A stretch of 64,000 nt of DNA, from positions 17,050,183 through 17,114,182 of the forward strand of contig CM026426.1 in assembly GCA_014871385.1 (NCBI GenBank), written 5' to 3'. A program made the position numbers and the translations under genes. Position 1 is the stretch's first letter, and every line of letters begins with the position of its first letter. The notes under the pieces are model-generated. The model made no database searches. It was not told where the DNA came from and saw only the letters and a program-made list of their open reading frames with translations. The stretch is from Ceratodon purpureus. Taxonomy: Eukaryota; Streptophyta; Bryopsida; Pseudoditrichales; Ditrichaceae. Of the stretch, positions 14,203 through 60,525 are shown piece after piece.

Positions 14203-15121
14203 CGTGGACCCAATAATCGGTAGTCTTGATTGAATCTCCCGTGGTCACGCTTGGTGATTTGCAGGTAATCGACAGAACTTGTTTTGATTTTGGGACACCT
14301 CCTACACCCAATGAAAGCCTAACGTAGTAGCAAAATCTCTCAACCGTGGTAATTATTGCGGGACAATTAAATTCACAATAACAAATACTCCTAACCTAAT
14401 TCAAATAACTCAGCGCTGTCGACCACAAAACCTACCTTGCCTTATGCCGTTGTGGCAGCAAGTCCTAATGAAACCGAAATTCAAATTGCTCAAAAACCCA
14501 CTAGCCCCTGAACACCCCACAAAGGTTTATCAAATTAGGTTAGCTCATCGAATCTTCAAGTACATCAGTTTTCATCTCTTTGATGAAGCCAATGCCGTCG
14601 ACTGACAACGACCCCTCGCCCCCGTCGCTGCCAGCGGACGCTGCCAAGAAATGAATCGGAATCTTAATTTTGCTCCACCGATCTGGGGCGCCATCGCCAC
14701 TCGGAATCTTTGGAGCAAATCATATACAATTTTGCGTCCCACAGTGCCATAAACGATTTGCTTGAAGCAGAACAGGGCGCATCATTTTCTTGGTGCTGAA
14801 CAGCGTAGAGCCGATGGCGCCATCACGCCCAAACCGTTGTGGCAACAAGTCGAACAATCCGTGGATCGAGGCAACGGATTGAGGCAATTTATTAATTGCA
14901 GAGCAATAAGTTCCACTCCTTGGCGCTCAACAACCACCGTCCACGCCCTCTCGCCAACGAGGCAAAACCCAGCCATGCAGCTCCCGTTTGTCTCCAAAAG
15001 GCCGCTAGGGGCAGCGTTTCCTCCCCCTGCTGACAACAACAGAGGGGTTTTTGGGCAGGAAGCTCACCTAATTCGAATTGTCTTACAAGGCCCATTGCAA
15101 ACCCCATTTTTCCGCTAATGA
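14203..15121. other. No gene recognised
   Basis: Sequence between the 5' end of the preceding minus-strand gene and the truncated left edge of the SET-carrying element. One open frame at 14762-15118 has no recognisable domain and is open on both strands. It shows no similarity to sequence upstream of the sibling element at 55.18 kb, so the edge at 15,122 is a real breakpoint. Confidence 0.5.
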
Positions 15122-16040
15122 CAAGAGCATTGTTTACGACCAGGCACATGTGAACCAAACGCTGTCCAGTCTAGGCAAGGGATTGTACTGTTCATGCCCA
15201 TCAAGGGACCGCTTGACCGCCAAGTGTCCATGTACATGTGCAACAACCGCCAACGGTGGTAGATTTGCATACAGGGCAGGCGGTTTACTCAAGGAGTCTT
15301 TTCTTTAACGACGCATACATGAGGCATACGACTGTACTAATACTCTATAGTGCTACTGTACTAAGCTACATCGTATTGAGAGTGTACACACTTGTGGGGC
15401 TCACAAGTCGTGGGCCTTCATTTCTGAGTGTATTGCAAAGTGTGGATGTCGTATCGATTGTGGGAACCGTGTTGTACAGCTAAGGATGAGATACGGTGTA
15501 GAGGTTTTTTGTTCAGCCCACATGGGTTGGGGTATCTGAGCAAGAGAACCTAATCCTAGAGGGGCGTTTGTGTTTGAGATGATGGAGGAGATTCTGACCA
15601 ATGCCGAGCAAATGCTTAGGAATCTGGCAGTGAAGGGGGGCTCGTCTTATAGCTTACAGATTGATGCCGACTAGGCTGCTCAACGGGTGTTGGATGACAA
15701 CTCAGCTTTGTGCCTTGATGCAACCTGGTTCCGAAATGTGGCCCGATTCCTTAATCACCGGTGGATCCCACTTCAATTTGCACCGTAGGCTCTCAGTCGG
15801 TTTATACGTAATTTCCATACTTCTAATGCCTTTGTCCTCTATGTCTATAGGTGCAAGGATTCGAACTTGGTAGATGTCCCAGTCCTAGTCGGAAGGTTAG
15901 ACTCGAGCTTCTACCAACTGGCATTCTTCACAAAACGCAAGATTCAGCCATTGGAGGAACTAACCTGGGATTACAGAACTGTCTTCAATAGAGAAGACCC
16001 TGATTTGTCGTACTTTGAATCAAATGTGAAAGTTCTTTAG
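15122..16040 (+). pseudogene. SUVR4-like SET-domain methyltransferase, copy 1, truncated and broken
   Basis: Matches copy 2 at 55,183-56,110 through pre-SET (YCSCP, KCPCTC), SET and the start of post-SET. Disruptions visible against copy 2 are TAA at 15306-15308 where copy 2 has CAA, TAG at 15672-15674 where copy 2 has TGG, and further frame damage around 15,540 and 15,790. The 5' end is lost at the element breakpoint. The last exon after the intron (about 15,851 onwards) still resembles the post-SET half of copy 2, but the cysteine cluster has decayed (SNVKVL in place of CKCESS). Not expected to encode a working enzyme. Confidence 0.75.
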
Positions 16041-16286
16041 GCAGGGGAAAAGTAGACCTACAAAGTACTTGTTCTACCTAGTGTACACCATGCACATATT
16101 GTACACAGTGTACAAATACAGTACATTTCTTGGAATACAATTTGTACATATTTTGAATATTGTACACAATGGACATATTATATCATCGGCTGAACTTACG
16201 GCAATGGCATTCATAGTTTGTATTAAGCTATAGGAAATACATTTTTGATGCTATGTTGTGGACTTCTACTCTTCGATAAATGCCCA

Positions 16287-19200
16287 CTAGTCCCTCAACG
16301 CATCCTCACAAATCCTCTCTGACTCAACTGTAATCTTGTACAATGGACTACCTTTAACTCTATGGGCTGTAAGAACCATTGGAAACTTGCAAGCTGTGAC
16401 CAGATGAGCATCTATATGTGCATCAACTGCCCTATCACAAAACACGTATGTTTTATCACCTCTTCCATACTTCTTATAGTACTTAGCTCGGATCACCTTG
16501 TCCCCTGCAGAAAAAACACCGCCCCATGGACATGACAAACCCTCCTGCAATACAAACTTTGTACGTTGACATTGCAGCATGTAGTAGTCCACTCCGTCTT
16601 CGTTGTCACTCTCTGCTGAGATCATGAAATTGTCACCGACTGACACCAAATTACCTATCTCCGCGGAAGTCCCATCAAGAATCCAATTGGCGTCGATATC
16701 AAGCACTTCAATCTGGTTTGCTACATCGCTAGTACTAAACGATTGTAGACGCTACACCTTCCACTCCTGCACATGAGACAATTTTTCACAGTTATTCCAA
16801 TTACCATCGACACAAGGGATGCAAAAGCAAGATAATTCACGAGTTCTAAGAAGAGTAGGGTCAGACACAGAGAAACCTATAACCAAATGCAAAATCTTAG
16901 AGCCAAGTAAAGTGCGACATTTAATACTACTATCTCTGTGATCTACTTTAAATTCGCTTATGTTCCAGAAGACGCAAGAGATTGGGTCAACAATTGTGCT
17001 GGGAACAACCTCAGAGTAATTTTCCTTCAAAAATTCGACAACGTGCCCAACATTCTGAAGGGGCCTCGAGGGGTTCCGAATTTGATCCGCTCTCAGCGCC
17101 CTTTTCACCACCGCACCTGCACCATCCCACTCCCCCTTCTCGTGAGCTGATTCAAAAAAATTCCACCGCATCAAGCACCCCCCAGTGAGCGACAGATACC
17201 GACCAACAAAATACATGGCTGTGGCACACTTCAACTGCGAACTACAGTCGTCACTGAATACCCAATCTTCCTCTATGGTAAGTCCAGCATCAACCACCCA
17301 GTCTCAATGCAACATTAAGCAATGTTGCATAAACGCCGAATCATGCGCCTTGTCATCCGAAATGTAATAATGCGTTTGCTTCATGATGTCGTCACCTTCC
17401 CTCCACATCGAAATATGCACAAGAATGGTAACACTAGTGCTGAAGTAATACATGCTTTGCACTTCGTTTTGAATTGCAAATGTATAATTTTTAGCATAAT
17501 CTATATGGGACACAAGAACCCCTTCTGGGATATTCTTCATCATGAGCTGACACTGCTCATCTTGCCACCTCGCTCTGAAATTGTGCGTCACAAAAGTAGT
17601 CATTGTTATCTCCATGTACGAGAGGAACTCATGGACTGGCGTTTCCTTGAAAGCCTCTCTCAGTCTTTTCTTTGGCTGCCCTGTTTTTGCATGCACTCCA
17701 ACCTCGTAGTACTCAAAGCACTTCCACTTCAGTAGGAACGTCTGAGAATCTTGGAACTCTAATGGACAGACCTTGAATAAATGAAAGCCACACTGTGTAC
17801 AATCACCCATAACGCACTCTAACCTATGCCATCTATCAAACTCTCCCTTCGGACATAGGCAAGCCTCCCACATGGCTGTAATGCGCTTGAAAATAGAGAC
17901 GGGAGCATGGCAATCGGTCCCTTGGTCTTAGCTGCACAAACTAGACATAGACATGTGCAGTTTGTTGAGGTATGAAAACCCCTCACCTTGTCCCTCAGAT
18001 TGATTAATCCAGCCTTCATCATGTCCATCTCAACATGATAGATGCAGCAACATGTATTCCTCTCTTTTAATTTCTTTACCCACCACGGCTTCAACCTCTC
18101 GAATGCCCTTTGCCAAACACTGCATTCAGGGTGGACTCCGAGGAAACGTTAGAAATACAAAGTCTGAAAAAAAATCAGAGCATAGTACAAGTTGCTAACT
18201 GTTAGTACTTAATTCCAATCCCGGATACTGAAAGTACTAATAATCTACAAATACGAGTAGATAACCACATTATAGTACAAATTCAAGCACTTTGTTTACT
18301 TTGAAATTACTTAAACTACTTTGAAGTAGAAATGTAATACAAGCGGTACGCTAGTAGACTTATCAAAGTAGCATCCCATGATAAATAGTTTGAAAGGGAT
18401 ACAAGGTGTACATGAGCTTCTAACATTCAGTAGGACTACTACATTGTGCATATTCATCGGAACTATGAATACCTTGATCGCATAAATGGCTGTAATCGAA
18501 TACAATCAAAAGTACGAATATGATTGTTCTCTTCCAAAAGAATACAAGTGTACTCTGAGGCAAGGTACTGAAACTACACAACATAGACAATTGCGAAGTA
18601 ATGTACTCTTCAACAACAAAGGTGGAGGAATAGTACATTCTAGTGAACACATCAAAAGTTAAAGCACTCTGCGTAGAATCTAGAGCAGGGTTTAGAAAGG
18701 AGTTACAAATATTGTATAGGCAAACTTACTTGCGTCTCACAGAGATAATGAGTAGGATGAGGTGGAAGCCAGAGTTTGCGTCCTACTCTGTGCCGAACAA
18801 TATCCTTCTTGTTCGGAGAAACTTTGGTCTGTATCTCCCACCAACGGAGTATGCACTCTTTGACATAATCAGAAAGACCAGCCCTCGGCTGCCTAGACAA
18901 ACGCAACTTCGGTAGTGATCCACTGGAATCTTCGTCTGGCAACCTCCTTCTCAAAGCAATGCTAATACTCTCCTTAATTGTGTCCAGAACTCTAGACAAA
19001 GCACCCACTCGGACATTGGAGCCGGAACTAACTGCGGCATCTAAAAGAGCTGATTTCCGAGCTAACAGATCACGCGAATTTGCAACCTTCACTAAACGGA
19101 GCTCATTCTTAAAGTTGTCAATGAACGCGTCCCTAGCTCGGGCTTCTTGTGGACGGTGATAACAATCAGACAAAAAGGGAGAAACTGTACAATGACGAAG

Positions 19201-19530
19201 GACCCTTTCCATGACATCTCTCCGCCTAGCTAGATTAGGACATTGTTTCAACTCTTGAACAATAGCTTGACAGATTCGCAACGAAATCCTACTATTCTCT
19301 CTCACTGTAAAAGACTAAGCTGAAGCTTGCTCCGGCGTGTCATGAGCTAGGACTACAGACTCTGCTACCCTCTCCCTGTCACGTACTCTCTACCTTGCTT
19401 TTCTCTCCCGAGCTGCAGTAGCAGTAACTAGTCTTTGTGCCTCAAAGGCTTCAACCTCGGCAGCACGTTCAGCTGGACGTGGACGACTCAATCCCTCTCG
19501 TACCCTCTACCTCTTTGTGGTTTTTCCCAT
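16287..19530 (-). pseudogene. Divergent DDE transposase, copy 1
   Basis: Same architecture as the copy at 56,340-59,627: basic/coiled N-terminus (19530-19300), helical domain (19305-18725), an intron with dense GTAC, a zinc-rich domain (18130-17560), then the catalytic domain (17545-16287) with HIDYAKNYTF, VFSDDCSSQLK and NFFESAHEKGEWDGAG. Compared with copy 2, the motifs are weakened (AENY to AKNY, SDGC to SDDC, HGKG to HEKG). TAG at 19390-19392 replaces CAG, and TAG at 16287-16289 replaces TGG. Motif loss and stops indicate a dead copy. Two stretches are nearly identical to copy 2; see findings. Confidence 0.75.
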
Positions 19531-20425
19531 GAGCAAATCCTTCAAAGAAAACTTTTGCAAAGTCTTCAACCTAGAAAAATGTAGAAGGAACAATCACAGA
19601 AGAAGTTGACATGAACTTCTCAACCAGCTATGGACAACAGAAGTATGGACACAAAAATAAAATCAGAAGGAAGAATTCAAAGAGACCCCCCTCCACTAGC
19701 TCATGAGAAGACTGAAGTGTGATGTAGACTGAGGCGCCGCCTCGACGCATTATGATGCGCCGCAGGAACTAACTAATTCAAGCTCGGCGTCCGATGAACC
19801 CACCGACAGGCAATGTGAAATGCCACGTATTTGCGTGGTAGTACAAAGAGTACTTTAAGGACTACGAGTACAAGCGCCCGCGCAGCCACAAATAAAAAAA
19901 GATATATTCGGTAGAGCGTTTTTTGGCCGATTTGACATTTGGCCATTTTGGATTGGTTCTTGCTCTACCAGATTTTGCGAAGAAGTATTTAAAAAAAGAC
20001 AACTTTTGCTCATCTTTTTCACTCCAAAAAAACCATAACTTCTTTGCTAGATCTATGAAATTTTAGTCATGCTACCATGGCAATTCATTTCCCATCTTAG
20101 TAGCCTCCATGTCAGGTATTCTCCAAGAAGCGAATGCTGTCATTCAAGTCTGAATGATGCATGAACTTTGTACTTTTCTGATACTTTAGTACTTTGTGAC
20201 ATCCGCCTAAAGTTGTGCAAAAGTATCAATTATATATATGTGCTAACTTTTTTTTTCTCAACTCCTATCAAATTAGTCCCCCTTAAGTATTGTATGATAT
20301 AGGAGATACAACAAATCAACAGAAAATGACCTTCAATATTGAGTAATTCAAAGTAAAAATTCTAGTACTTTGCCTTTTTTTCACTGTGACATACAAATGT
20401 ACAAGGGTCTAGTGTACTCTCACCC

Positions 20426-29190: not shown

Positions 29191-29241
<51 letters not shown>

Positions 29242-41350: not shown

Positions 41351-41559
41351 TCTCCGTGTCTCTGAAAAAGTACAATGATCTCCTGTCTGCAAGTGTTAGT
41401 ATGACACATGTGAGAAAAAAATGGTATGTGTAGACATCAACCACAGGCCAATGTGATGCACATAGTCTCAAGCAAGGAGCCCACAAGGAGTTCCGGGACT
41501 AGAGGCCATGATTTCAAATGATATTAGGCTTGGCCTAAGTTGGTGGCATTTATACTCGT

Positions 41560-42049: not shown

Positions 42050-43598
42050 CTACAATGTGTATCTAAAACAACCATTGGGAGCTTGGAAGTTGTAAGGGGG
42101 GCTCATCAAATCATTTACAACTTTTGCAAGTGAAAGCCTCTTTGTAGGATCTTCGTTAAGCAAGCCATCCAACTTTGATGAGAATACAATCTTTGAGATT
42201 GAATCTTTGAAGAGTTCTGGGCATTCTTCTTCTCTCCATATTGTCTTTGCCAAATGGCCTACCGAAAATGCATCAGATAGCGTCGTACATGGATGCATCC
42301 TCTTCATGCGCCCCAAATTGCGTTCCTCATCATCTTTGTCGCCATATAAAAAGAACAACTCCGGTGCAACTCCTACCCTCCTCTCCTTTATTCGTACAAG
42401 ATCATCGGGGTCCCTCACACCATAAGGGGAGGCCTTCTTCTCAATGACTCTGCTTGCCATACTCCAATCGCACACACCAATATATACTTTATCCTTGTCA
42501 TGAGGTGGAAAGTGGAGTAGAATGTTGGATGGCGTTAAGTCGTTGTGGAGGATTTCAGCCTTATGGACTATGTCCATAACGTAGATGAGACTCCACGCCA
42601 ACATTCCCCGGTTCTTTCGATAGGCAACAATTCTTTGGCACTCTTCCATGGGCATATCCCTCGACTTCAAAATTTCTTTGTAATCTGTTGCCTCGGTTGC
42701 CTTCTCATTTAATTTGAGGAAGTTGCGGAGGCAATCTCCATTCCACCACAGGGTATAAACTTCCATGGTCTTAGAGTGAATGGCCCAAAATTTTATCACA
42801 CCCGGATGCTCTACGGGGTTAACTGTGGCCTCAATCGCCCGTTGCTCTCGCTGCTCCACTTCAGTTTTAGCCTTGGAAAGTTTTCCCGCAAATTCTATGT
42901 GAATTGGAATTTTCTTCATATTGGCTATTCGCACTTTTCGCACTTTGCCATACCCCCCTTTGGCATTGAAGCCAGATAATGGCACAACTTTGGCCGTAAC
43001 CGGAATCCATATCAATGCACCATACATGTGTGCTTCCAATGCTGAGTTCAACGCTTGCTCATTCCAAGGCATAATCTTTGTTTTCCCTTAGAACATCTCT
43101 GACATGCCTCCTGAACCGCTGTCAGTTTCTGAATAAACACTTTGTCTTGGTTGCTCCATTCTTCGCCTTGTGGTTTCTTCACATGTGATTCAAACACATG
43201 AATGACATTTGTCGTAGCACTACTCACTTGTTGTGTCAACCACTTATGCTGTGAAAATACTTCGTCATGCAATCCATGTAGAACTCTGATCCTTCTAATG
43301 CGCTCCAAAATTCCCTTTCCAAATCACGTTGGAGGTTGTAGATACCATTCTCTCCTTGATCAAGGTACACTGCCTTCAACATTCGTATGGTACGGGCCCT
43401 GTAGTACTCGACGGTCACCTTCCTGATGAAATGCGTATACTCCAATGGTGGATAACCGTCATCCTTCTCGTGCGCTGGTATACTCTTCTTCTTTTTACCC
43501 TTCGAGCTAGATGAAGGAGTAGAACCAGTAGAACCATGAGATCTTACACAACTCATAGGGTCCACCGCATCCGGAGCCTTGTCTAGAAGACATCGCAA
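42050..43598 (-). pseudogene. Protein-kinase-like cargo gene of the hAT element
   Basis: The kinase domain is open from 43,072 to 42,050 (340 residues). It has a glycine loop KGGYGKV (39-44), FAGK with Lys64 at the VAIK position, HNDLTPSNILL with Asp178 and Asn183 (catalytic loop, HRD changed to HND), CDWS with Asp202 in place of DFG, and APE at 236-238. The main catalytic residues are thus present. An upstream segment (43,598-43,080) with a Lys-rich stretch joins through two frame changes near 43,265 and 43,075, which may be frameshifts or small unrecognised introns. Minus strand, upstream of and in the same direction as the transposase. The role is unknown; phosphorylation of host or transposase proteins is only an inference. 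Confidence 0.7.
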
Positions 43599-45703: not shown

Positions 45704-48085
45704 ATGGAGGGAAACCCAGATCCGGCAGCGGAAAGGCCACTCACCAAGGCCGAAAAGAAAAAAATCAGAGATCGTGAACGGAAGCGTGGTGGTAAGAAGA
45801 TGAAGAAGCGGCTTCATGTGTTGAACAACCCGACAAAGTTGGCATTTAGAGGTTGGCAAGATGAGCCAGAACCGTGGAAATATTCCACATGCGAGGAATT
45901 CATTGAGTGGTGCCACATCACAATAATATTTCCACACGATTGGCACAGAAAGCACAGGATCTCAGACAAGGCTAACCTCTATTATTGCTTGAATGCGGAG
46001 TTTGTTGAACGTTCTATACAAGTTTACCAGCATCTATACAAGCAATCTTGTGTCGAACGCAATGAAGTACCATTGTTCATTTGCAGAATGGTGTATGCTG
46101 AGGTGATGCTTCACAAAGTGGTGGATTGGTCCACCATCAAATCCACGACGAGTGTTAGGGCGCCGACAGAGCGTGACATTCCCAAACAAAGGAAATTTGC
46201 AGATGGTGGCCTGGGGAAAAGAATGAAGGTAAAAACACAAGTGCAAGAGCCTGCTACAGCAGAGTCTGAACCAGATTCTGATTCCGATGGTCGTCGTGGA
46301 GAAAGAGTGCCACGTAGAATTGCAGCACCAGCAAATATGGCTGTAGAGCCTCCATTGAACCATCCAGCGGACGTCGTAGAACCTCACGACGATGCGAACA
46401 TCATCTTCGTGGAAAACGATCCGAATACGGCAGCTAATTTGGAGGTGGTCGGAACTGAACCTACGATGGTTCTTGGCATGCCGGTTGTAGTTAGAAATGA
46501 CCAGTCTAACCAAACCGAGGAGGTCGGGGAGTTGCAATTACAGGTTATAGAAAAGGATGGCTTCATTGCAGAGTTACAAGAGACCATCCGAAAACTACGA
46601 TTGGAATCAGCAGCAAAAGATGCAGTAATATCAGATTTGCGCAATCAATTGCAAGAACGAGAAAGACCTCAGTCTTCTCAAGCCAATGATATACCTGTAG
46701 TTCAGGATCCAATGTTGGTGGATGAATCTTACATCAACAACACGGTTGATGTTGCGACGGCCGGTGTGTTGGAGAATATTTCCACACCAGCAAAACGACG
46801 ACGAGTTGGAGTGATATTGCCTCCACCAGCCCCATACCCGCGACCCTATGTGGACATCGATGGACCATTAAGTCAAGATTCCTTGTCATTTCCACCCAAT
46901 GCTCTAACGGGAGAAGTGGAGACATTGATGAGAGCCAATAATGATTTGCGGCTCCTTGTTTCTAAGTTTGCTAAAGCATACTACGAGTGGAAAGTGGCAA
47001 CCATTCTCAGCGTTGATCGCGGTCGCCAAATTGCATTAGAGTTCAAGAAGATCGACGAATCGTACTTGCAACACAACAGACGAAGGGATTTTGGCCTCAC
47101 TTCATGGATTAACGCAGATGATTTGTATCCAGATGTCATGCCAATGCAAGAATCGAATCCTAAACTCATAGATTGGGCCCAGTTGAATTTCGATGTGGAG
47201 AATGCAACTTCCTGCCATGATCTTCAAATGAAGAAAGGAGTTAATAGCAGAAAGCTTTGGCCAAATCCTCAACCGTGGGTGATGGATGGTTCAAAACAAT
47301 GTATGGTGTGTCTAAACACATTTGGTCCTGAGGGTGGATGGGCAGTTGGATCATGTACCCACATGTTCCATCCAATGTGTTTAATTAACATTTTTTTGGT
47401 AAGGAGATTTTGCCCGGTGTGCAAATCTCCGTTCCATGAACGCTTGTACGAGGTTTTTGGACTCATTCCATACATGCCACCAAGCCATGAGAGAAATCCC
47501 GAAAACACACCAGGTGAAGAGTACCGCAACATGTGGGGGGAAGATTTGATTTGGAGTTGGCGGGCCCAGACTCACTCGGTCTTCAAGAGCAATGTAAGTG
47601 ACGAGTTGGGGTGGGAGAATGACCCCAATCAGATTGTGAGGGTGGCAAAGAAGATAATTGGATCAAAGAAGGAGGACCAAGGGAAACGAAATTTCTTCTA
47701 TCAGACTTTGAATGGATACTGGGATACAAAGAATAGGAAGTTCCAACTTGGTAATCACCCAAAAGGCCTCATATGGAACAAGGAGGGGGAATTGGTTACA
47801 GACCTTGAAGGTCAATTAATGACTTTGACCGCCCGAGATGCAGTCCAAATGTCTCTTTCAGAGTGGAAGTTAATTTTCAAACATGAGGCTGTTGACTTTC
47901 TTCTGAAGGAACACTCTCCACAGAGATTGCGTACATTGAGAGAATTGAGGAACTCGCAAATTCTGCGTTCTCTCAGTGAAAGTGATGGCCCATTCCGGCG
48001 GACACGGACGAGAGCCAGGCGCACCTTGATGCTGGACGATGGAGCGGGACCAAGTGGCACAGCGGGAGTAGATGCAGATGAATAG
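45704..48085 (+). CDS. Coiled-coil RING-H2 protein, intact cargo gene of the hAT element
   Basis: 793 codons without a stop, ATG 45704 to TAG. The N-terminus is very basic (KKKIRDRERKRGGKKMKKR). An acidic linker is followed by a coiled coil at about 280-320 (VIEKDGFIAELQETIRKLRL). A RING-H2 finger spans residues 533-573: C533-x2-C536-x14-C551-x-H553-x2-H556-x2-C559-x10-C570-x2-C573, a C3H2C3 arrangement. A C-terminal region of about 215 residues, with LNGYWDTKNRKFQLGNHPKG, ends in an Arg-rich tail. RING-H2 fingers usually act as E3 ubiquitin ligases; the target is unknown. It is the only fully intact gene in the element, which hints at selection or recent insertion. Its RING resembles that in the neighbouring SET-carrying element. 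Confidence 0.85.
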   Translation: MEGNPDPAAERPLTKAEKKKIRDRERKRGGKKMKKRLHVLNNPTKLAFRGWQDEPEPWKYSTCEEFIEWCHITIIFPHDWHRKHRISDKANLYYCLNAEFVERSIQVYQHLYKQSCVERNEVPLFICRMVYAEVMLHKVVDWSTIKSTTSVRAPTERDIPKQRKFADGGLGKRMKVKTQVQEPATAESEPDSDSDGRRGERVPRRIAAPANMAVEPPLNHPADVVEPHDDANIIFVENDPNTAANLEVVGTEPTMVLGMPVVVRNDQSNQTEEVGELQLQVIEKDGFIAELQETIRKLRLESAAKDAVISDLRNQLQERERPQSSQANDIPVVQDPMLVDESYINNTVDVATAGVLENISTPAKRRRVGVILPPPAPYPRPYVDIDGPLSQDSLSFPPNALTGEVETLMRANNDLRLLVSKFAKAYYEWKVATILSVDRGRQIALEFKKIDESYLQHNRRRDFGLTSWINADDLYPDVMPMQESNPKLIDWAQLNFDVENATSCHDLQMKKGVNSRKLWPNPQPWVMDGSKQCMVCLNTFGPEGGWAVGSCTHMFHPMCLINIFLVRRFCPVCKSPFHERLYEVFGLIPYMPPSHERNPENTPGEEYRNMWGEDLIWSWRAQTHSVFKSNVSDELGWENDPNQIVRVAKKIIGSKKEDQGKRNFFYQTLNGYWDTKNRKFQLGNHPKGLIWNKEGELVTDLEGQLMTLTARDAVQMSLSEWKLIFKHEAVDFLLKEHSPQRLRTLRELRNSQILRSLSESDGPFRRTRTRARRTLMLDDGAGPSGTAGVDADE

Positions 48086-49101: not shown

Positions 49102-49105
49102 ACTA
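49102..49105. repeat. Left ACTA target-site duplication
   Basis: ACTA before the left end of the SET-carrying element, repeated at 60,522-60,525. Only 4 bp, so support comes mainly from its exact position next to matching inverted ends. Confidence 0.7.
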
Positions 49106-49889
49106 GGGTGAAAGTACACTAGACCCATGTCACTTTTGGCAAAAACTTGCTGTACCAGTTGTACCCCAAAGTACTATATTCTGTCTTGAGTACTAATTCG
49201 CGGTCACCATTGGCCGTCGGATGAAGGGATAGAGTTGATGGCCCGAGCATCGTCAGATCTCGCTCCGCCAATGGGAGGACGTCTGTATCATGTGGACTGA
49301 CTGCCTGCCAGCATCGTGTGCGGGATCCATGGGGAAAGGGACGGTGCCAAGTTGGCTGATTTGAATTAGGCTGCAGCATCCAATGTGAACAGCATTGTAA
49401 TGTGGATCTTTTCTTGCGACCAGGGATTGTGATGTGAAACTTTGTATCTTTTATTTTTTATGTGCCAAGAGCTATGGTTAATTTAATTTATGCCTCTTTT
49501 GGATGAATATTACATGAGAAGAGATACACTGTGGTGTCCTAATGTGATGACAATTTGTATGTAATTTGAATTTCAGTGTCCATATTGAACTTATAGATTT
49601 TGTGTGTAGGATTTAGGGTATTCCTTGTTCATTAATTATATTTAGGGTACATTTGTGATACAAGACATGGTATTGAGTACATTAATACTACGTATATTTG
49701 TCATGGTATGCATTAGGAGTTTCTTGTAGGCTCAGCAGTGCACACCTTGACATTTTACAAGCGAAAGAATTATAAATTCAAATACAATAAATTATCATGA
49801 ACATTTTAAAGTTAACAAATATCTCCTAACTAATTAAGTAGTTATTGAATCCTATATCTAAAAGTGAATTTTTATCATCTTAAATGATG

Positions 49890-50990
49890 CTTTATAAGTT
49901 TAGCGCTTTCTTCGTTTTAGTGCTTTCTTCTTTTTCATCTTTATTTATCTATATATTTATTGATCATGTATTGTTAAATCTTTTTATAGGCATCCTATAC
50001 CATCTTCTTAATTCTATCATTTACTCACCTAGAGAGTTCCTCATAATTTCATTTGTATTTTTGTTTTTGTTTTTTAATTTTTTTTATTGTTGGTTTTTTT
50101 TTTTAATCCAAGTTATAATCTTTTGATTTTCGATATTAATTTTCTTCTTCTTCATCCATTCAATTTTTTTTATTTAACTATCTTTATTTATTTATTTGCC
50201 ATTTATTGTTCCATCTTTTTCTCTCTCACCTTTGCTATCTTCCTACATCTATCATTTACTCACCTTCTGAGTTCTCTAAAATTTCATTTGCAATTTATTT
50301 TTATTTTTTCTTTATTGTTTTTTGCTTTTTATTTGCAAATGTGTCACTATTAATCCGCAATAATTATTATCTTCTTCTTCATCCATTCATTCATTTTTTT
50401 TGAGTACTGTCTTTATTTATCTATTTATTTCTTTGTCTTTCATTTTTCAATCTCTTTTTAGACATCCCATACCATCTTCCTAAATCTATCATGTACTCAC
50501 ATTGTGAGTTATCTTCAATTTCATTTTCTTTTTTTTGTTTTTTTATTGTTTGTTTTTTTTGTTTATTGGTTGATTTTTTCTTCTTCTTCATCCTTTCATT
50601 CATTATTATTTTTGGTACTATCTTTATTTATATATTTATTAATTTTTCCTTTATTGTTCAATCTTTTTCTAGACATCCTATACCATCTTCCTAGACATCT
50701 ACCACTTGACTCTTTTTCCCCTTCATGTTTTTTTATTTTATCTTTTGTTTTTAATTTTAATTTTTTTTTTCTTTAAAAGTTTGAATCAATCAATTGATTC
50801 ATTTTTATCTTCCCTCTTCTTCATCCATTCATTATATTTTATTTACACCTTCTTAAATTTGCCATTTTCGTACCTTGTGCATTATCCACTTCTCTTATAT
50901 TCTCTTGTTTTACTTCTATTTTTATATTTTTTAATTCTAAAAAACTTTAATCTGCCTTGGATATTTTTCTCTTCCAATACCCAATAATAT
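49890..50990. repeat. Diverged T-rich tandem repeat, period about 215-240 bp
   Basis: About four to five units, recognisable by ACCATCTTCCTAAATCTATC at about 49,999, 50,230, 50,470 and 50,682, separated by T-rich filler. It lies in the left noncoding part of the SET-carrying element. The long hydrophobic open frames here are composition artefacts. Confidence 0.75.
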
Positions 50991-51390
50991 ATATATGTAT
51001 ATTTTTTAATCCGTCAATGTTCAATGGTTCTAGAATACTTTATCCATCTTCTTAGATATAAGTTTAGATCTAACCGGTGGTCACCAGTTGCTGCATTTGC
51101 TGTGAACTCAGGGAACCGGTGACCGCAAGTACCTTGGAGGGATGACTGGTGACCGCAGGTCGTCGTCTCGCACCTCACTTTGGCGGGGGGTTACTGATGC
51201 TGTGTTTTGAATCTCTTGTGTCCCGCGCGTTGTTCCGTCAGTTGTGGACGTCGTTACGGAGGGTTTACCGTGAGCAATCTTTGCGGAGTGTGTTAGTTAG
51301 AGAGTGTGCTAGGTTTAGGGCAAGGAGGTGTGTTAAGGGGTATGAAGATTGAGGGGTAGCAAGATTGAGCTGTTAGGGTTTATCGGCGCC

Positions 51391-54300
51391 ATGGAGGAGA
51401 GTTTGATGGCGCGGACATCGTCGGGTGGGACTGGCAGAAGATCTTTGGTGCAGTCGAAGTCCGGGGTTTCGAGTAGGAGAGAGGAGTCTGCGACGGAGGC
51501 ATGCAGCGATGACGAAGGGGGCAACGAGGACCTCGTCCGCGTCGACGAGGCGGTTTGAGCGTCCAATCGGAGAAGGCTGGGAGATCCGTGAAGAAGATAC
51601 AGTCGGTGGAGGACGTTGAGGCAGAAATTCGACGATTGAAGGCGCCTCCTCGCGTTTTGAGTAGAGAGGATTTTCACAGGGAGTACAATCTTCTTCTAGA
51701 AGGTGACAACCCTCATCGATTTCGGAAGAATACAGTGCGCGCCGATTCCGTGAAGAAGTTGTTTGGAGGTCGATACGGAGATGGGGGCCGCGCCAGTTTC
51801 TGTTGGCTGAATTGTAAAGTTCCAGAGGTCGTGGCGCGGGTGAAATTCTTACACCCTATCTTGTACCAGCATGGACCAAGAGAAATCCCGAACAATGTCA
51901 AGGTGAAGTTTGCGAAGGGTGTCACGTTTGAGTATGAGGAAGGCGCCGGGTTCGTGGATTGGTGCGCTTTCGGTGCTGAGACAAACGAGCGCCAGCGGTC
52001 CCGATACAAGCAGGATGTGGCCAAGCTACTGGCGTTGAGGAAGACGTTCGAGGGGAAGGGTCCTGTCGATGTGCGAGGAAAAGAGTGGCGGAGCATCAAG
52101 GTGGAGCCCGAGACAGAAGGGGATGGTGGAGGACGAACCTTCGACAGTGGAAGAAAGCGGCTGCCTTTGAAGAAGGAGGGAGTGGAAGGGGGTTTGGGGT
52201 CTTGTCTTGGAGAGACTGGGGATTGTGATGGGAACTTTGAGAGTGGGATGGGGTCTGGCGTGTGTGTGCAGGGTAGTTTCCAGGATCGGAGTGAAGGATT
52301 GGTGGGCTGGAGGAAGGGATTGGTGAATGAGAGACTGAAGGAGTTGGAGGGATTAATGGGGGTGTTGCACTTAGAGTTGAAGGCGTTTGCTGTGAGAAAG
52401 GTCCAGTGTTTGGAGAGGACAGAGGCTGCGAGGTCGAAGTGCAAGTAGAGGACCTGCTTGGTGGATAGGTGCAAGCATCAAATTCAGATGAAAAAAGTCA
52501 GGATCGACGTGCTGGACTCGGAGGGTCAGAGCTCAGTCCGGGAGAAGATCAAGATGGAAGGGATTCAAGAGCAGCTGGAGGAGGAGGAGGCTCAGATGCG
52601 GGTGGACTTGGCTGAACTGAAAGCAGCCGAATTGGAGCTCGAGGGCGTGGCAGCAATGCTTGACGGGAGGCAGAAGTTATTTGACGCATTATCAGCCGCG
52701 AATTTCCAGCTGAAGCGAGGGAAGAGCAATGCCTCTATCTGGCCACGTCCTATGGTGTACTCGGAGACCTTTGATTCAGACGTCGTTGGTAGTGCAGAAG
52801 TTTCGGGTTCTATGCCAATGACACCCTGCTGCTTGTGTCTATTTCCCTTCCCTTGCAACGATGTTGTATTATCTAGTTGTAGACACCTTTACCACCCATT
52901 CTGTGCATCTGTGGTATTTGTCAATTGTGGTGCTTGCGTGGCCAAGGGTTGCGGAGTTGTTCCCCATCCAAACTGGTACAACAGCTTTGGGTGGGGACAT
53001 CCATCGATAGAGATGCGTGATCGAGGGAGACAGCTAGGCGTCACTGAGGAGAGGAGTAGAGTTCTCCAAGCAAGGGCTGATTGTGCGAGTTCGATGTTGC
53101 CATCAAATGGTAAGTTACTTGTCTCTTATGTTCGACTATTTTCCTTAGTACATCAAGGTCACTGTTTGTGATATTACTATATTCTGTATAGTTAAAGTAC
53201 TATGACGATATTTTTGCGCAATCGGTTTAGTACTTAGCAGAGTCTAGTTGTACCTAATTTTGGGATTGCTAATATCAATTTGCGGCATTTCTATGTGAAT
53301 GTACTTTTCTTTGACACTGTCCATTCGCGCGCCCACTCCTTTGTAGTATGTGTGATACTCTGAGTACAGTATGGTCAATGTTGTAGGAGCTGATTTATAG
53401 TATACTTACATTCTGTACATACTTTAGTCGGTTTGCTTGTTATAGTACTAAGTGTATAATACTTTGTGAACAATGTATGTAGCGACACTGTGGCCTTGTA
53501 CTAATTTACTAGCCTAGATACACTGCTTTTGTACCTATTCTACTTTTGTCATTTTGAGTACCTTTTGTATAATGATGAGTATACTGTTTGTATCAGTACT
53601 CCAATGTCTGTCTAGAATGTACATTGGGTCCAGTTGGTAGTACTACTAAGTCCTTTTTTGATTCGTCCGACCAGAAATAGTACTTCCTGATTAAGTTCAC
53701 ACTAAACCCTCGAATGATTGCCGCAGACTCTTCAAGCTTCTCCTTCCATGCGCCTGCTGCAACTCTACCTATTGTGCTAGAAGAGAGATCAAGCCAGGTT
53801 TACGTACCTACACCGGTGAAGGAGGATGAAGTGGTGCCGGTGCCGTTGCAGCATGGCCCGTCTAGGATTCTGCTCAATTAGAATGCGAGTGGCGCGAAAC
53901 GGAAAAGGGATGAACAGGCTGTCTTCGAGTGCTTGGAGGGAGAAGGGGGCGAAACACACGAGGGATGGAGCCGGAGCTGGACTCTGAAGACGAGTCTGAC
54001 AGCGATGAAGATCAGGAGCAGAAAATGCCAAGGCTCCCCTCCAGTTCTAGGACAACTAGATCAACGGGCTCGGGTGGAGGGTTAGAGCCTCAGGAAGATT
54101 CTCCGGGAATGTTGCCGGTTTTTAAGTCTTACGACCCCAACTTCATCAGCCCCATACTTGCAGAGGTCTCTAATCTAGGGGAACCTGAGGAGAAGGCAAA
54201 GACTAAATATCCTATCTGACACTTACACATGGAGGATAGAGATGATGTTGTTGAGGCTGTTTAGGTGGTGTGTACACAAATGGAGGTTACATCTCCACCG

Positions 54301-54908
54301 GCAATACCTGTACCCGGATCCCAGTGTCTACCCGGGAGGAAACACGACTTGAGCCACACCGAAAGTGCAGCCGTAGAACCCACAGGTGACCCTTCTTCAG
54401 TGTATTTTTATAGTGCGTAGTCTTAATAGATTTTTTTATACGTACTCTGCTCCATTCAATCAGATTGCACTCCTAACCATGTGTTGGCTGTACAGCTGCT
54501 ATCCAAAGAGGAGTAGAGAGTCGCGGCAAGAAGGTCAAACAACCAGTCGTAGGGCCGCAGCAGAATCTTACTGGAGATAGGGATGCTGGACCTTCGATGA
54601 AGCCTGCCGTTCGGGAGCGTGTTTTAGAGGTGACTCCTGCGAAGGTTGACGACGGTGAACAGGTTGCGGTGGAGAATCTGCTTTCCGTGGATAAGAGTGT
54701 CACCCAGCTATTTCATGAGGCTCTTGTTGGTGTGGAGGATGCTGAACCGAAGGCCCACATTGCGAGTGAAAGGATCACCCGGGCCCGTGCGAAGGAGCTC
54801 CCAGATGCTGTAGATGGCGGGGATGAGGCGTCTCCCGGGAGCTCGAGAAAGAAGAAGGGGGAGAAGAAACGAAAGGTAGGTGGTGCGGCGTCCAAGGGCC
54901 GGAAGTAG
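51391..54908 (+). pseudogene. Coiled-coil RING-H2 cargo gene of the SET-carrying element
   Basis: Begins at ATG 51391 (MEESLMARTSS). A frame change near 51,550 leads into a long frame from 51,555 to the donor GTAAGT at 53,110. That frame contains LSREDFHREYNLLLEG, a coiled coil (about 52,530-52,690) and a RING-H2 finger at about 52,825-52,950: C-x2-C-x13-C-x-H-x2-H-x2-C-x7-C-x2-C. A GTAC-rich intron (53,110-53,725) leads to an exon with acidic and Lys-rich parts. A second intron ends at about 54,484, and the last exon ends KKKGEKKRKVGGAASKGRK. In-frame TAGs at 52,446, 53,879 and 54,262 all replace a plausible Gln codon (CAG). A frame change lies near 53,960. Apart from these it looks well kept. 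Confidence 0.6.
53110..53725 (+). other. GTAC-rich intron
   Basis: GT-AG intron (GTAAGT to CCGCAG). I count 14 GTAC tetramers in 53,161-53,700, where about two would be expected at random. Confidence 0.75.
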
Positions 54909-55048
54909 CAGCGCTGGAGATGGAACGTTGTTGTCAATTTTGGTAGATTTTGTGAAGGGTTTACAGAATGTAGTTCACTTGTGGCCGGCTTTGTATTCTA
55001 ACCTCAATTGCGGGTTAACTTCAATGAATGCACATTATCGCATAACAA

Positions 55049-56146
55049 TTGTGGAAATGTGGGCTGTCCAATTACCAGGGCCAGTTCTCTTATTTGGTTG
55101 AAGATTTGTCTAGGGGACTAGAGAAGACCAAAGTCCCTCTTGTGTTCTCTGAATTTTCTTTGCCTAGTTTTCAATACATCAACAAGAGCATTGTGTACGA
55201 CCAGGCACATGTGAATCCTACGTTGTCCAGTCTAGGCAAGGGATCGTACTGTTCATGCCCATCAGGGGACTGCTTGACCGCCAAGTGTCCGTGTACATGT
55301 GCAACAACCGCCAACGGTGATAGCTTTGCATACAGGGCAGGCGGTTTCCTCAAGGATTCTTTTCTCCAACGATGAATAAATGAGGCCTACGACTGTACTA
55401 GTACTCTACAGTGCTACTGTACCAAGCTTCGCCGTATTGAGAGTGTTGTCACATGTGGGGTTCACAAGTCAAGCGCCTTCATTTCTGAGTGCAATACAAA
55501 GTGTGGATGTCGTATCGATTGTGGGAACCGTGTTGTACAGCAAGGGATGAGATACGGTATAGAGGTTTTCCGTACAGCCCACATGGGTTGGGGTATTCGA
55601 GCAAGAGTACCTATCCCTAGAGGGGCGTTTCTGTTTGAGATGTGCGGGGAGATTTTGACCAATGCTGAACAAATCTTAAAGAAACGGGGTGTGAAGGGGG
55701 GCTCCTCTTATAGCTTACACATTGATGCCGACTGGGCTGCTGAAGTAGTGTTGGATGACAACTCAGCTTTGTGCCTTGATGCAACCCGATTCGGAAATGT
55801 GGCCCGATTCCTCAATCATCGGTGGGTCCCACTTCTATTTGCACCATATGGTCTCAACCGGTTTTATACGTAGATTTCCATACTTCTAATCCCTTGTGTT
55901 CTCTGTGTCTACAGGTGCGAAGATTGGAACTTGGTAGATGTCCCAATCCTAGTCGGAAGGCTAGATCGGAGCTTTTACCGGCTGGCATTCTTCACGAAAC
56001 GGAAGATACAGCCAATGGAGGAATTGACATGAGATTACGGACATGACTTCAGCAGAGACGACCCTGATCTACCGTACTTCGAGTGCAAGTGCGAGAGTTC
56101 TGTATGTAGGGGAAAAGTAGACTTGCTAAGTACTTGTTGTACCTAG
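55049..56146 (+). pseudogene. SUVR4-like SET-domain histone methyltransferase, copy 2
   Basis: Reads VEDLSRGLEKTKVPLV and LPSFQYINKSIVYD, then pre-SET cysteines (YCSCPSGDCLTAKCPCTC and CGCRIDCGNRVVQQG). The SET domain has MGWGIRARVPIPRGAFLFE, LCLDATRFGNVARFLNHR and, across a GT-AG intron (55,822-55,914), CEDWNLVDVP, giving the NHxC signature. ELT-stop-DYG and a post-SET CKCESSVCRG follow. This order and wording match plant SUVR1/2/4, nuclear H3K9 methyltransferases linked to transposon silencing. Two stops disrupt it: TGA at 55,373 where copy 1 has CGC, and TGA within ELTxDYG, where the family has Trp or Tyr (TGG to TGA). The 5' start is uncertain; no ATG was fixed. It follows the RING gene on the same strand. 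Confidence 0.85.
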
Positions 56147-56339
56147 TGTACACTAAGCACATACTGTACACACTGTATATGTCGTACATTGCTAGAAAGA
56201 CACTTTGTACATATTTTGGATAATGTACACAATGGACATATTGGACATAGTAATTCAGTTGAGTTAAACTGATGGCAATGGCATTGAGATTTTGTATTAA
56301 GCTTTAGAAAATACAGTTATGATGGTATGTTGTGGACTT

Positions 56340-59300
56340 CTATTCTTCGTTAAATGCCCACCAGTCCCTGAGCGCATCCTCACAAATCCTCTTTGACTCG
56401 GCTCTAATCTTGTAAACGGGACTACCTTTAACTCTATGGGCTGCAAGAACCATTGGGAACTTGCAAGCTCTGACCAAATGAGCATCTATATGTGCATCAA
56501 CGGCCCTATCACAGAACACGTAAGGTTTATCACCTCTTCCATACTTCTTATAGTACTTAGCTCGGATGACTTTGTCCCCAACAGAAAAACCACCGCCCCA
56601 TGGACATGACAAACTCTCCTGCAATACAAATTTCGTACGTTGACATTGCAGTATGTAGTAATCCACTCCGTCTTCGTTGTCAGTCTCTGCTGGGATCATG
56701 AAGTTGTCGCCAACGCACACCAAATCGTCTATCTCCACAGAAATGCCGTCATGAATCCAGTTGGTGTCGTCATCGAGAACATCAATCTGGTCTGCTACAG
56801 CGCCCGTACTAAGTGGCTGTAGACGCTGTACCTTCCACTCCTGCACATGAGAGGAGTTCTCACAATTATTCCAGTTACCATCGACATAAGGGATGCAAAA
56901 GCATGATAGCTCCCGAGTTCTAAGAAGAGTAGGGTCAGATAGAGAGAAACCCATAACAAAATGCAAACTTTTAGAGCCAGGTAAAGTGCGACATCTGATA
57001 CTACTATCTCTGTGATCTACTTCAAATTCTCCAATGTTCCAAAAAACGCGAGAGATTGGCTCAGTTGTTGACTGAGCATATGTGCTGGAAACACGGTCAG
57101 AGTAGTTTTCTTTCAAAAATTCGACAACGTGTGTTGCATTCTGAAGCGGTCTCTGGGGGTTCCGAATTTGTTCGGCTCTCAACACCCTTTTCACCACTGC
57201 ACCTGCACCATCCCACTCCCCCTTCCCGTGAGCTGATTCAAAAAAATTCCACCTCATCATGCACCCCCCAGTGAGCGACGGATACCGCCCAACGAAGTAC
57301 ATGGCAGTGGCACACTTGAATTGGCTACTGCAACCGTCACTGAATACCCTGTGTTCCTCTATGGTAAGACCAGCATCAACCACCCAGTCCCAATGCAACA
57401 TTAAACAATGTTGCACAAACGCAGAATCATGAGCCTTATCATCTGAAATGTAATAATGCGTTTGCTTCATGATGTCGTCCCCTTCTCTCCACATTGTGAT
57501 ATGTACAACAATTGTAACACTAGTGCTGAAGTAATACATGCTTTGCACTTCATTCTGAATTGCAAATGTATAATTTTCAGCATAGTCTATATGGAACACA
57601 AGAACTCCTTCTGGGATATTCTTCATCATCAGTTAACATTGCTCATCTTGCCACCTCGCTCTGAAATTGTGCGTCACAAAAGTAGTCATTGTTTTCTCCA
57701 TGTACGAGAGGAACTCATGGACTGGCGTTTCCTTGAAAGCCTCTCTCAGTCTTTTCTTTGGCTGCCCTGTTTTTGCATGCACTCCAACCTCGTAGTACTC
57801 AAAGCACTTCCACTTCAGTAGGAACGTCTGAGAATCTTGGAACTCTAATGGACAGACCTTGAATAAATGAAAGCCACACTGTGTACAATCACCCATAACG
57901 CACTCTAACCTATGCCATCTATCAAACTCTCCCTTCGGACATAGGCAAGCCTCCCACATGGCTGTAATGCGCTTGAAAATAGAGACGGGAGCATGGCAAT
58001 CGGTCCCTTGGTCTTAGCTGCACAAACTAGACATAGACATGTGCAGTTTGTTGAGGTATGAAAACCCCTCACCTTGTCCCTCAGATTGATTAATCCAGCC
58101 TTCATCATGTCCATCTCAACATGATAGATGCAGCAACATGTATTCCTCTCTTTTAATTTCTTCACCCACCACGGCTTCAACCTCTCGAATGCCCTCTGTC
58201 GAACAGTGCATTCAGGGTGGACTTCGAGGAAACGTTGGAAGTACGCAGTCTGTACAAACATCACAGCATAGTACAAGTTGCTAACTGTTAGTACTTAATC
58301 ACCCTTCCGGTTACTGAAAGTACTAATTCTCTATATACTCTACAAGATAACCACATCAAAGTACAAATTTGAATACTTTGAATAACTTTTAAATTACTTT
58401 GAATACTTTAAATAACTTGGAAGTACAAGTTTAATACAAATGATACTGTAGTCTACCTATGAAATTAGCGCCCAATGATACATTGTTTGAAAAGGATACA
58501 AGGTGTACATTATCTTGTTACATTCAGTAGGACTATTACAGTGTGAGTACACTTAGGAACACCCTACACCTTGATTGCGTAAATGGATGTATTCTAACAC
58601 CATCGAAAGTACAAGAATTATCAGAATGTTCTAGGAGGAATAAAGTGTACTCCAAGGCAAGGTATTGGAACTACACAGCATAGACTATTGCGACGTAATG
58701 TACTCTTTAACAACAAAGGTGGAGGAATAGTACATTCTAGTGAACACATCAAAAGTTAAAGCACTCTGCGTAGAATCTAGAGCAGGGTTTAGAAAGGAGT
58801 TACAAATATTGTATAGGCAAACTTACTTGCGTCTCACAGAGATAATGAGTAGGATGAGGTGGAAGCCAGAGTTTGCGTCCTACTCTGTGCCGAACAATAT
58901 CCTTCTTGTTCGGAGAAACTTTGGTCTGTATCTCCCACCAACGGAGTATGCACTCTTTGACATAATCAGAAAGACCAGCCCTCGACTGCCTAGACAAACG
59001 CAACTTCGGTAGTGATCCACTGGAATCTTCGTCTGGCAACCTCCTTCTCAAAGCAATGCTAATACTCTCCTTAATTGTGTCCAGAACTCTAGACAAAGCA
59101 CCCACTCGGACATTGGAGCCGGAACTAACTGCGGCATCTAAAAGAGCTGATTTCCGAGCTAACAGATCACGCGAATTTGCAACCTTCACTAAACGGAGCT
59201 CATTCTTAAAGTTGTCAATGAACGCGTCCCTAGCTCGGGCTTCTTGTGGACGGTGATAACAATCAGACAAAAAGGGAGAAACTGTACAATGACGAAGGAC

Positions 59301-59627
59301 CCTTTCCATGACATCTCTCCGCCCAGCTAGATTAGGACATTGTTTCAACTCTTGAACAATAGCTTGACAGATTCGCAACGAAATCCTACTATTCTCTCTC
59401 ACTGTAAAAGACTAAGCTGAAGCTTGCTCCGGCGTGTCATGAGCTAGGACTACAGACTCTGCTACCCTCTCCCTGTCACGTACTCTCTGCCTTGCTTTTC
59501 TCTCCCGAGCTGCAGTAGCAGTAACTAGTCTTTCTGCCTCTAGGGCTTCAACCTCGGCAGCACGTTCAGCTGGACCTGGACGACTTATTCCCTCTCTTAC
59601 TCTCCGCCTCTTTGCGGTATTTCCCAT
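56340..59627 (-). pseudogene. Divergent DDE transposase of the SET-carrying element, copy 2
   Basis: ATG 59627 (MGNTAKRRRVREG) starts a basic coiled segment. TAG at about 59,412 (ASA stop SFT, fits CAG) precedes a helical domain to 58,822, a GTAC-rich intron, and a zinc-rich domain (RNTCCCIYHVEMDMMKAG, NCTCLCLVC, CVMGDCTQCGFH). The catalytic domain is a clean 429-residue frame (57,629-56,340) with HIDYAENYTF (Asp), FSDGCSSQFK (Asp) and NFFESAHGKGEWDGAG (Glu/Asp). Comparable DxAENY, SDGxxxQ and HGKGxxDGxG motifs occur in unclassified transposase-like proteins of invertebrates and fish; I do not know a family name. TAA at 57,633-57,635 (copy 1 has CAG) and a frame change near 57,975 break it. 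Confidence 0.75.
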
Positions 59628-60500
59628 GACCAGATCTTTCAAAGGAAAGTTTTGCAAAGTCTTCAACCTGGAGGGACGCAGAAGGAACAATCAGAGAAGA
59701 AGTTGACATGAACTTTGGAACCAGCTATGGACAACGCAAGTATGGGCACAAAAATAACAACAGAATGAAGGATTCAAAGAGACCCCTTCCACTAGCTCAT
59801 GAGAGGATTGAAGAATGATGGAGACTGAAGCGCCGCCTCGACGCATAATGATGCGCCGTAGTAACCAACTATTCCAGGCTCGGCGTCCGATGAAACGGCT
59901 GACAGGCCACTTGGATTGCCACGTATTTGCGTCGGAGTACAAAGAGTACATTTTGGACTTCGAATACAAGCGCTAGCGCAGCCACAAATAAAAAAAGATA
60001 TATCCGGTAGAGAGTTTTTGGGCTGATTCAACGGTTGGCCATCCTGGGTTGGTTCCTGCTCTTACAGAGTCTGCCAGAAAAATTTAAAAAAAGACAACTT
60101 TTCCACAACTTTTTCTCTGCAAAGAAACCGTTACTTCTTTGCTAGATCTATGAAATTTTAGTCATGCTACCATGGCAATTCATTTCCCATCTTAGTAGCC
60201 TCCATGTCAGGTATTCTCCAAGAAGCGAATGCTGTCATTCGAGTCTGAATGATGCATGAACTTTGTACTTTTCTGATACTTTAGTACTTTGTGACATCCG
60301 CCTAAGGTTCTGCAAAAGTATCAATTATACATATGTCCTAACTTTTTTTTCCTCAACTCCTAGCGGATTAGTCCCCCTTAAGTATTGTATGACATAGGAA
60401 ACACGACAAATCAACAGAAAACGACCTCCGACATTGAGTTATTCAAAGTACAAATTTAAGTACTTTGACATTTTTTTCACTGTGACATACAAAAGTACAA

Positions 60501-60521
60501 GGGTCTAGTGTACTTCCACCC
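60501..60521 (-). repeat. Right terminal inverted repeat of the SET-carrying element
   Basis: Reverse complement of 49,106-49,126 apart from one base. The same terminus ends copy 1 at 20,405-20,425. Confidence 0.9.
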
Positions 60522-60525
60522 ACTA
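60522..60525. repeat. Right ACTA target-site duplication
   Basis: ACTA after the right terminus; matches 49,102-49,105. Confidence 0.7.

Follow-up and report, generated by a model that had tools for sequence, protein, structure and literature searches.

A DNA transposon lineage of Ceratodon purpureus that carries a SUVR4-type SET domain, probably joined to a RING-like finger

A DNA transposon with a SET-domain gene in the C. purpureus genome

We analysed a window of 64,000 nt from the moss Ceratodon purpureus (assembly GCA_014871385.1, contig CM026426.1, positions 17,050,183 to 17,114,182), which belongs to contig C6 (110.5 Mb, 30 % of the 362 Mb assembly); by its size, C6 may be the V sex chromosome of this moss. 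Our subject is an 11,416 bp element at 49106..60521 of the window, in which a transposase gene converges on a gene for a SUVR4-type SET-domain histone methyltransferase. The element has near-perfect inverted ends and a 4 bp target duplication. Inverted-repeat detection placed its terminal arms (25 nt, 92 % complementary; 21 nt with one mismatch by eye) at 49106..49130 on the forward strand, where the GGGTG end has the motif AGTAC inside it, and at 60497..60521 on the reverse strand. The flanks bear the duplication ACTA at 49102..49105 and 60522..60525. The same boundaries, 21 bp ends with one mismatch and ACTA duplication had been proposed in a preliminary description made from the sequence alone, and were borne out here by the repeat detection and the flanks.

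The SET-domain gene, in its probable form, occupies the forward strand in five exons. Exon 1 (51391..53109), recognized as homologous to a frame that is open in an intact copy, encodes an N-terminal part without known domain, a coiled coil and a RING-H2-like finger. It is followed by an acidic, fast-evolving linker (exon 2, 53727..54385) and a lysine-rich linker (exon 3, 54496..54875), the frame of which can alternatively run to a stop at 54906-54908. Exon 4 (55079..55821) encodes the pre-SET region and the first part of SET, and exon 5 (55915..56146) the end of SET, ELTWDYG in other copies, together with the post-SET cysteines. The SET gene of the preliminary description was recognized by Pfam even in the window copy (Pre-SET, PF05033, 4.1e-7; SET, PF00856, 2.2e-9). 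The transposase gene, convergent with it on the reverse strand, consists of exon 1 (58827..59627; found by homology, with a splice donor at its boundary and a start codon picked by eye) and exon 2 (56340..58249; splice acceptor at its boundary), which holds the DDE-like catalytic part. The 429-residue catalytic open reading frame (ORF) noted previously was located at 56340-57629.

The window copy is dead, as both of its genes are broken. RING exon 1 contains a frame break and in-frame stops (for example, TAG at 52446), the linker has stops and a frame break as well, and there is one stop in each SET exon, that in exon 5 replacing the W codon of ELTWDYG. Both transposase exons contain stops and frame breaks. 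A sibling copy at 15121..20425 (forward strand; matches at 15121 and 16266) is 89 % identical over 5.3 kb and retains the right end, the transposase and most of SET, as the preliminary description had claimed for the SET–transposase pair. The sibling is, however, cut near the start of the SET exon, and so lacks the left end and the RING.

Two further repeat features lie within the element. Its left part (49938-50845) holds T-rich direct repeats of ~190 nt at a spacing of 211-237, and a 32 nt inverted repeat (78 %) that contains AGTAC joins 58356-58387, in the transposase intron, with 60437-60468, near the right end.

Copies of the element and recent movement

Matches to the left and right ends (40 scored for each) were paired, yielding 20 further end-to-end copies of 10.7-13.1 kb. 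Together with the window copy these make up family 1 as studied here, a selected set of 21 that excludes copies carrying large insertions or missing one of the paired ends. Genome-wide, the pattern of the terminal inverted repeat (TIR) occurred at 106 sites, compared with 0 for a reversed control pattern. Duplications of 4 bp flank 18 of the 21 copies, including C6_71663150 once a change in the element's first base is tolerated; none was seen at C8_457325, C6_11685358 or C6_74756289. Inverted ends and duplications of constant length in many copies identify the element as a cut-and-paste (TIR) DNA transposon.

Sequence of all five RING–SET exons and of the transposase was present in 21/21 copies, three of them having parts only: C6_36493848 (46 % of exon 4 and 59 % of exon 5), C6_98129703 (36 % of exon 5) and C6_89557433 (6 % of transposase exon 1). 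Recurrence of SET and RING between the termini had been set in advance as the test of the association, and it was found in every end-to-end copy and in a second family, described below. We are highly confident of the anatomy of the element.

Fourteen of the 21 copies reside on C6, and the others are on contigs that include C2, C5, C7, C8 and C11. Four copies (two on C6, one on C2 and one on C7) are 99.6-99.9 % identical over 11.25 kb and have long open frames, indicating that the family moved recently. Three of the 21 (C6_94287839, C6_85257603 and C2_22618513) have no stop or frame break in the seven exons tested, and C6_94287839 served as the reference. In C7_5244907 the sole break lies beyond the transposase donor. 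Among the sites listed for the TIR pattern, no close TIR pair suggestive of a short non-autonomous derivative was seen by eye.

A second family and a fixed genome-wide layout

A second type of end, GGGTGTAAG, accounts for some of the TIR sites. The family 2 element at C2:600365-613578 is flanked by a 4 bp duplication (aaca) and has the layout and genes of family 1, with one stop between two parts of its transposase exon. Identity between the families is 75 % in the catalytic transposase exon, 57 % in transposase exon 1, 48 % in the RING exon, and 50 and 63 % in the SET exons.

A genome search with the family 2 transposase gave 1,228 candidates at first look, and scores were obtained for 142 of them. 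In 113 of these 142 a SET match lies downstream on the other strand, that is, convergently, with starts 1.3-3.1 kb apart, where an even spread of matches would give ~1.4 by chance. A further SET search added six, so that 119/142 have a convergent SET within 3.2 kb, and three more have a SET at 18-21 kb in the same sense. No scored transposase (0/142) had a SET otherwise placed within 6 kb. The corresponding RING search (150 scored of 1,496 candidates) found a same-strand SET downstream within 4.4 kb for 112 matches and at 6-25 kb for 15; 23 had none among the matches listed, and 0 had a SET otherwise placed. Pre-SET alone gave at least 148 matches (150 of 315 candidates scored), and 203 of the 290 distinct listed SET places are on C6.

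The elements form a transposon superfamily with one plan, in a fixed layout at over a hundred places. Chance capture of a SET gene at one site, which the preliminary description had argued against, is ruled out by recurrence in the copies, by the second family and by the convergent SET–transposase pairs across the genome. Separately, we observed another group of repeated SUVR-like SET genes (L053, L054, L055, L056 and L059) that have a longer loop and, in several cases, a lysine-rich exon before SET.

RING and SET are probably encoded by one spliced gene

RING and SET had been described as separate genes, a view that our analysis replaces with one spliced gene as the probable arrangement. When the five exons of C6_94287839 (one RING, two linker, two SET) are spliced at GT-AG introns, the result is a single uninterrupted frame of 1,219 aa. 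At the junction between exon 3 and SET, the donor GT is present in 21/21 copies and the acceptor AG in 19/21, and the splice keeps phase; the SET exon of the reference copy contains no in-frame ATG until the end of pre-SET. By eye, family 2 offers a candidate donor–acceptor pair of the same phase.

These observations leave a modest chance for two genes, with SET transcribed from its own promoter and beginning in an undetected first exon. In each of the five aligned copies, the frame of exon 3 can continue to a stop, and the sequence there is better conserved (85-97 %) than that around it; the sequence just ahead of the SET acceptor is likewise conserved (84-96 %). In family 2, moreover, an in-frame ATG occurs early in the SET exon, and the linker frame contains a stop. 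The conserved stop at the end of the exon 3 frame also means that a RING-only product may exist beside the probable fusion protein.

The SET domain is of the SUV39/SUVR type

The SET part matched Pre-SET (PF05033, 3.2e-11) and SET (PF00856, 8.5e-19). Its matches in the PDB were EHMT1/2 (best 2.9e-35, EHMT1), Clr4 (5e-32) and SUV39H2 (3e-28), as well as SETMAR, DIM-5 and SUVH4/6. The motifs GWG, NHRC and DYG and the post-SET cysteines (CxCx4C) that characterize SUV39/SUVR-type enzymes are all present, and the catalytic motifs are intact in unbroken copies.

The residue before DYG sets the degree of methylation. This residue, which aligns with F of EHMT1, is W in 18 of the 21 family 1 copies, the exceptions being the stop in the window copy, a gap in C6_36493848 and Q in the decayed C6_98129703. 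It is likewise W in family 2 and at loci L057 and L060, and Y in two host SUVH-like genes. With W in place of Y at this product-specificity position, the enzyme may be expected to di- or trimethylate, like SUVR4, which also has W there.

The RING-H2 pattern reported in the preliminary description is present, although its score falls below the Pfam cut-offs (best E 0.002). The first six ligands (C-x2-C ... C-x-H-x2-H-x2-C) fit and are invariant in 7/7 rows of the alignment, whereas the last pair is C-x4-C and not C-x2-C. Against the PDB, the region gave four weak matches (E 0.1-0.76), the best to a tRNA synthetase and others to EBS and PHF8. The latter two are PHD proteins, and the finger is possibly PHD-like rather than RING.

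Purifying selection and the host SUVR gene

The ratio of non-synonymous to synonymous divergence (dN/dS) was calculated by the NG86 method between subfamily representatives, for nine of the ten pairs formed by five copies; three of these copies have in-frame stops and a fourth has a frame-breaking gap, and such codons were skipped. Values were 0.07-0.11 for the RING exon, 0.29-0.50 for the linker, 0.20-0.33 for exon 3, 0.15-0.23 and 0.06-0.18 for the two SET exons, and 0.07-0.12 and 0.16-0.26 for the transposase exons. The tenth pair, from within a subfamily, ranged from 0.13 to 1.05 on very few changes and was uninformative. The low ratios between subfamilies, on the measure that the preliminary description had suggested for the SET domain, signify purifying selection and indicate that selection maintained the SET gene during the divergence of the subfamilies. 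In synonymous divergence, the RING exon (0.65-1.10) exceeded the catalytic transposase exon (0.25-0.45) two- to threefold, perhaps because subfamilies exchanged parts.

The WIYLD domain marks SUVR1/2/4 genes. The whole genome contained one WIYLD match (two candidates scored), at C1:10504721 and outside the elements, with a Pre-SET match on the same strand about 2.5 kb away (C1:10501778). The possibility that the SET gene was the unique host SUVR4 gene, which had been raised as an outcome fatal to the association, is ruled out by this pair on C1. The same genome-wide WIYLD search found no N-terminal WIYLD in the SET genes of the elements. Two other loci, L051 and L052, were judged by eye to be SUVH-like genes.

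Placement of the transposase

The transposase has D232, D315 and E355/D357 as invariant residues, and is DDE-like as judged by eye only. Its predicted structure (AlphaFold, pLDDT 33) was too poor for use. Comparison with Pfam produced no match above chance, the best being one weak match to a domain of unknown function (E 0.16); no relatives were found in the PDB and none was confirmed in viral contigs. Sola transposons make 4 bp duplications, which the element fits in a comparison by length only, and those of MuDR/MULE are 8-9 bp. The 4 bp duplications and the lack of a MULE domain match argue against MuDR/MULE. Membership in Harbinger (HarbingerS) is disfavoured by the same duplications, those of Harbinger being of 0, 2 or 3 bp (PMC12730594), and by the absence of a match to the Harbinger transposase of Pfam.

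The Lanisha superfamily (Maumus, McDaniel, Carey, Repbase Reports 2020, cited in PMC12730594) was compared by its description. In the Lanisha/CMCT clade, C(2)C and H(3-4)H motifs stand between the second D and the last E, the termini are mostly CA..TG and the duplications are of 2-5 bp (PMC12730594). The element is similarly a cut-and-paste DNA transposon with a duplication of fitting length, and its transposase has CxxC at 462-465 and HxxxH at 597-601, after the second D and invariant in 5/5 rows, although motifs this short may be due to chance and the placing of the last E is tentative. Unlike those of Lanisha, its termini are GGGTG..CACCC, and the available text of PMC12730594 makes no mention of SET cargo in Lanisha. 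The element possibly belongs to this superfamily and, its genome being that of C. purpureus, may be identical with Lanisha.

The motif AGTAC is enriched in the elements

AGTAC, which is part of the TIR, occurs 56 times in the non-coding DNA of an unbroken family 1 copy, against 13.2 expected (sd 4.2), and is the strongest 5-mer there. The first 9.9 kb of family 2, coding DNA included, contain 67 against 20.7 expected; in the non-coding DNA of this family, the limits of which are approximate, AGTAC is second to the overlapping GTACA. The non-coding DNA of the two families shares only one 67 bp match. Density was 4.1-6.8 per kb across all 21 copies, and 28.5 kb of window DNA outside the elements had 38 against 29.2 expected. 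VANC proteins of Arabidopsis bind short motifs that have accumulated in non-coding parts of the transposons encoding them (PMC5735166). This precedent and the crowding of AGTAC led us to propose that some protein encoded by the element probably binds the motif.

A proposed role in the methylation of the element's own chromatin

We lean, by a small measure, towards the hypothesis that the RING–SET protein is part of a self-addressed H3K9-methylating module by which the element escapes or tunes silencing. In this model, an element protein would bind the AGTAC clusters in the element's DNA, the SET domain would methylate lysine 9 of histone H3 (H3K9) on the element's nucleosomes, and the RING finger would add ubiquitin, possibly stimulating SET. 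Mono- and dimethylated H3K9 (H3K9me1/me2), as read by the silencing loop, would be converted to the trimethylated form (H3K9me3), the element would leave the loop, and the net effect would be escape from, or tuning of, host silencing. In Arabidopsis seeds H3K9me3 was found on active genes and was lower on transposon genes (PMC13017857). Since H3K9me3 marks active chromatin in Arabidopsis, pushing me1/me2 to me3 could free the element from the loop. SUVR4 binds ubiquitin through WIYLD, and ubiquitin affects its product, although the review is inconsistent on which product depends on it (PMC7218100). For the parts of the hypothesis, our confidence differs: methylation of H3K9 at the element's own chromatin is slightly favoured, and escape rather than self-silencing is a tentative choice, a little short of an even call. 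The preliminary description had suggested that the element could shield itself, silence rivals or steer chromatin at its target, roles that are putative here as they were there.

Several observations weigh against this hypothesis. SUVR-type enzymes can also silence, and the Arabidopsis reading of H3K9me3 may fail in this plant. E3 (ubiquitin ligase) activity is uncertain because the finger scores below the Pfam cut-offs and has C-x4-C as its last pair. Twenty of the 142 scored transposases were without a SET among the matches listed. AGTAC is also in excess, to a smaller extent, in family 1 coding DNA (20 against 7.3), the non-coding DNA of this family is rich in A/T runs as well, and the AGTAC binder could be the transposase alone, the motif being in the ends. 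Finally, the location of most copies on one large contig would fit an accumulation of self-silenced elements equally well.

This last point bears on the alternative that the RING–SET protein is self-limiting, adding repressive H3K9 methylation so that activity falls as copy number rises and the host is spared. A catalytic domain of the SUV39/SUVR type and the concentration of 14/21 copies and 203/290 listed SET places on a contig that is 30 % of the assembly are consistent with such a function. Nevertheless, selection on an element for its own silencing would be weak, copies at least 99.6 % identical have recently spread on C2, C6 and C7, and the transposon-borne VANC and TET/JBP proteins have been read as anti-silencing (PMC5735166, PMC12730594); we consider self-limitation unlikely. 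The same enrichment on one contig, and the fixed convergent SET–transposase arrangement, could instead mean that SET and RING act with the transposase to make or choose permissive chromatin at donor or target. Target steering of this kind appears less likely again, given that target duplications vary, that insertions occur also on C2, C5, C7, C8 and C11, and that elements may build up on a non-recombining chromosome through being lost from it slowly. A SUVR gene taken from the host and carried along without function would account for the many broken copies, that in the window included. Such a passenger is very improbable in view of the fixed genome-wide layout, the ~50 % identity kept across families and the purifying selection between subfamilies (SET exons 0.06-0.23), and a recent neutral passenger is ruled out by dN/dS.

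Relation to known systems

DNA transposons that encode SET-domain histone methyltransferases are known from Phytophthora, namely HarbingerS and a SET-carrying MuDR (Repbase Reports 2014, cited in PMC12730594). Apart from SETMAR, SET-carrying DNA transposons were named, in the literature that our search reached, only in the available part of PMC12730594. The elements described here differ in their 4 bp duplications, in having no Harbinger or MULE Pfam match, and in a SUVR4-type SET probably joined to a RING-like finger. What is new is not a SET-carrying transposon as such; it is a probable transposon lineage, with the probable RING–SUVR4 fusion, a fixed plan in >100 places and the AGTAC motif. 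The broader proposal, a plant superfamily with the RING–SUVR4-type fusion as a core gene, self-addressed to AGTAC and rewriting H3K9 methylation as an anti-silencing device independent of the oomycete cases, is possible as a whole but rather doubtful.

Other systems share single features with the element. VANC of the Arabidopsis VANDAL transposons is likewise a transposon-borne protein with a short motif accumulated in non-coding element DNA; it is, however, not described as a methyltransferase in the parts available, and VANDAL motifs are often tandem repeats (PMC5735166), while AGTAC binding here is putative. Fungal TET/JBP DNA transposons carry an epigenetic enzyme as recurrent cargo, but this is a methylcytosine enzyme whose gene moved between superfamilies (PMC12730594), in contrast to the histone methyltransferase in a fixed layout seen here. 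Arabidopsis SUVR4 has the SUVR-type catalytic domain, preceded by an N-terminal ubiquitin-binding WIYLD (PMC7218100), of which the single match in the C. purpureus genome lies outside the elements. In primate SETMAR a SET domain is also joined to transposon biology; that gene arose when a transposon inserted next to a SET gene of the host and became domesticated (PMC6326780), whereas here SET belongs to the mobile element.

Silencing marks are usually viewed as a weapon of the host, and this family keeps a histone methyltransferase of its own under selection. Whether host or transposon controls H3K9 methylation is directly testable, as the same genome holds intact and broken copies. Gene-family counts would also be distorted if these SUVR-like SET genes, of which there are well over 100, were taken as host genes.

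Other features of the window

Directly to the left of the element, at 45704-48085, is a 793 aa RING ORF, the coiled-coil/RING region of which is weakly similar to the transposon RING–SET protein (27.6 %, E 8e-7). This ORF may belong to another mobile element. ORFs that by eye resemble mariner, MULE/FAR1, piggyBac and BED-hAT transposases were observed at 20450-21130, 28096-30931, 36196-37491 and 38816-41392, respectively, and several DNA transposons may be nested in the window. At 42050-43072 there is a 340 aa ORF that appears kinase-like by eye.

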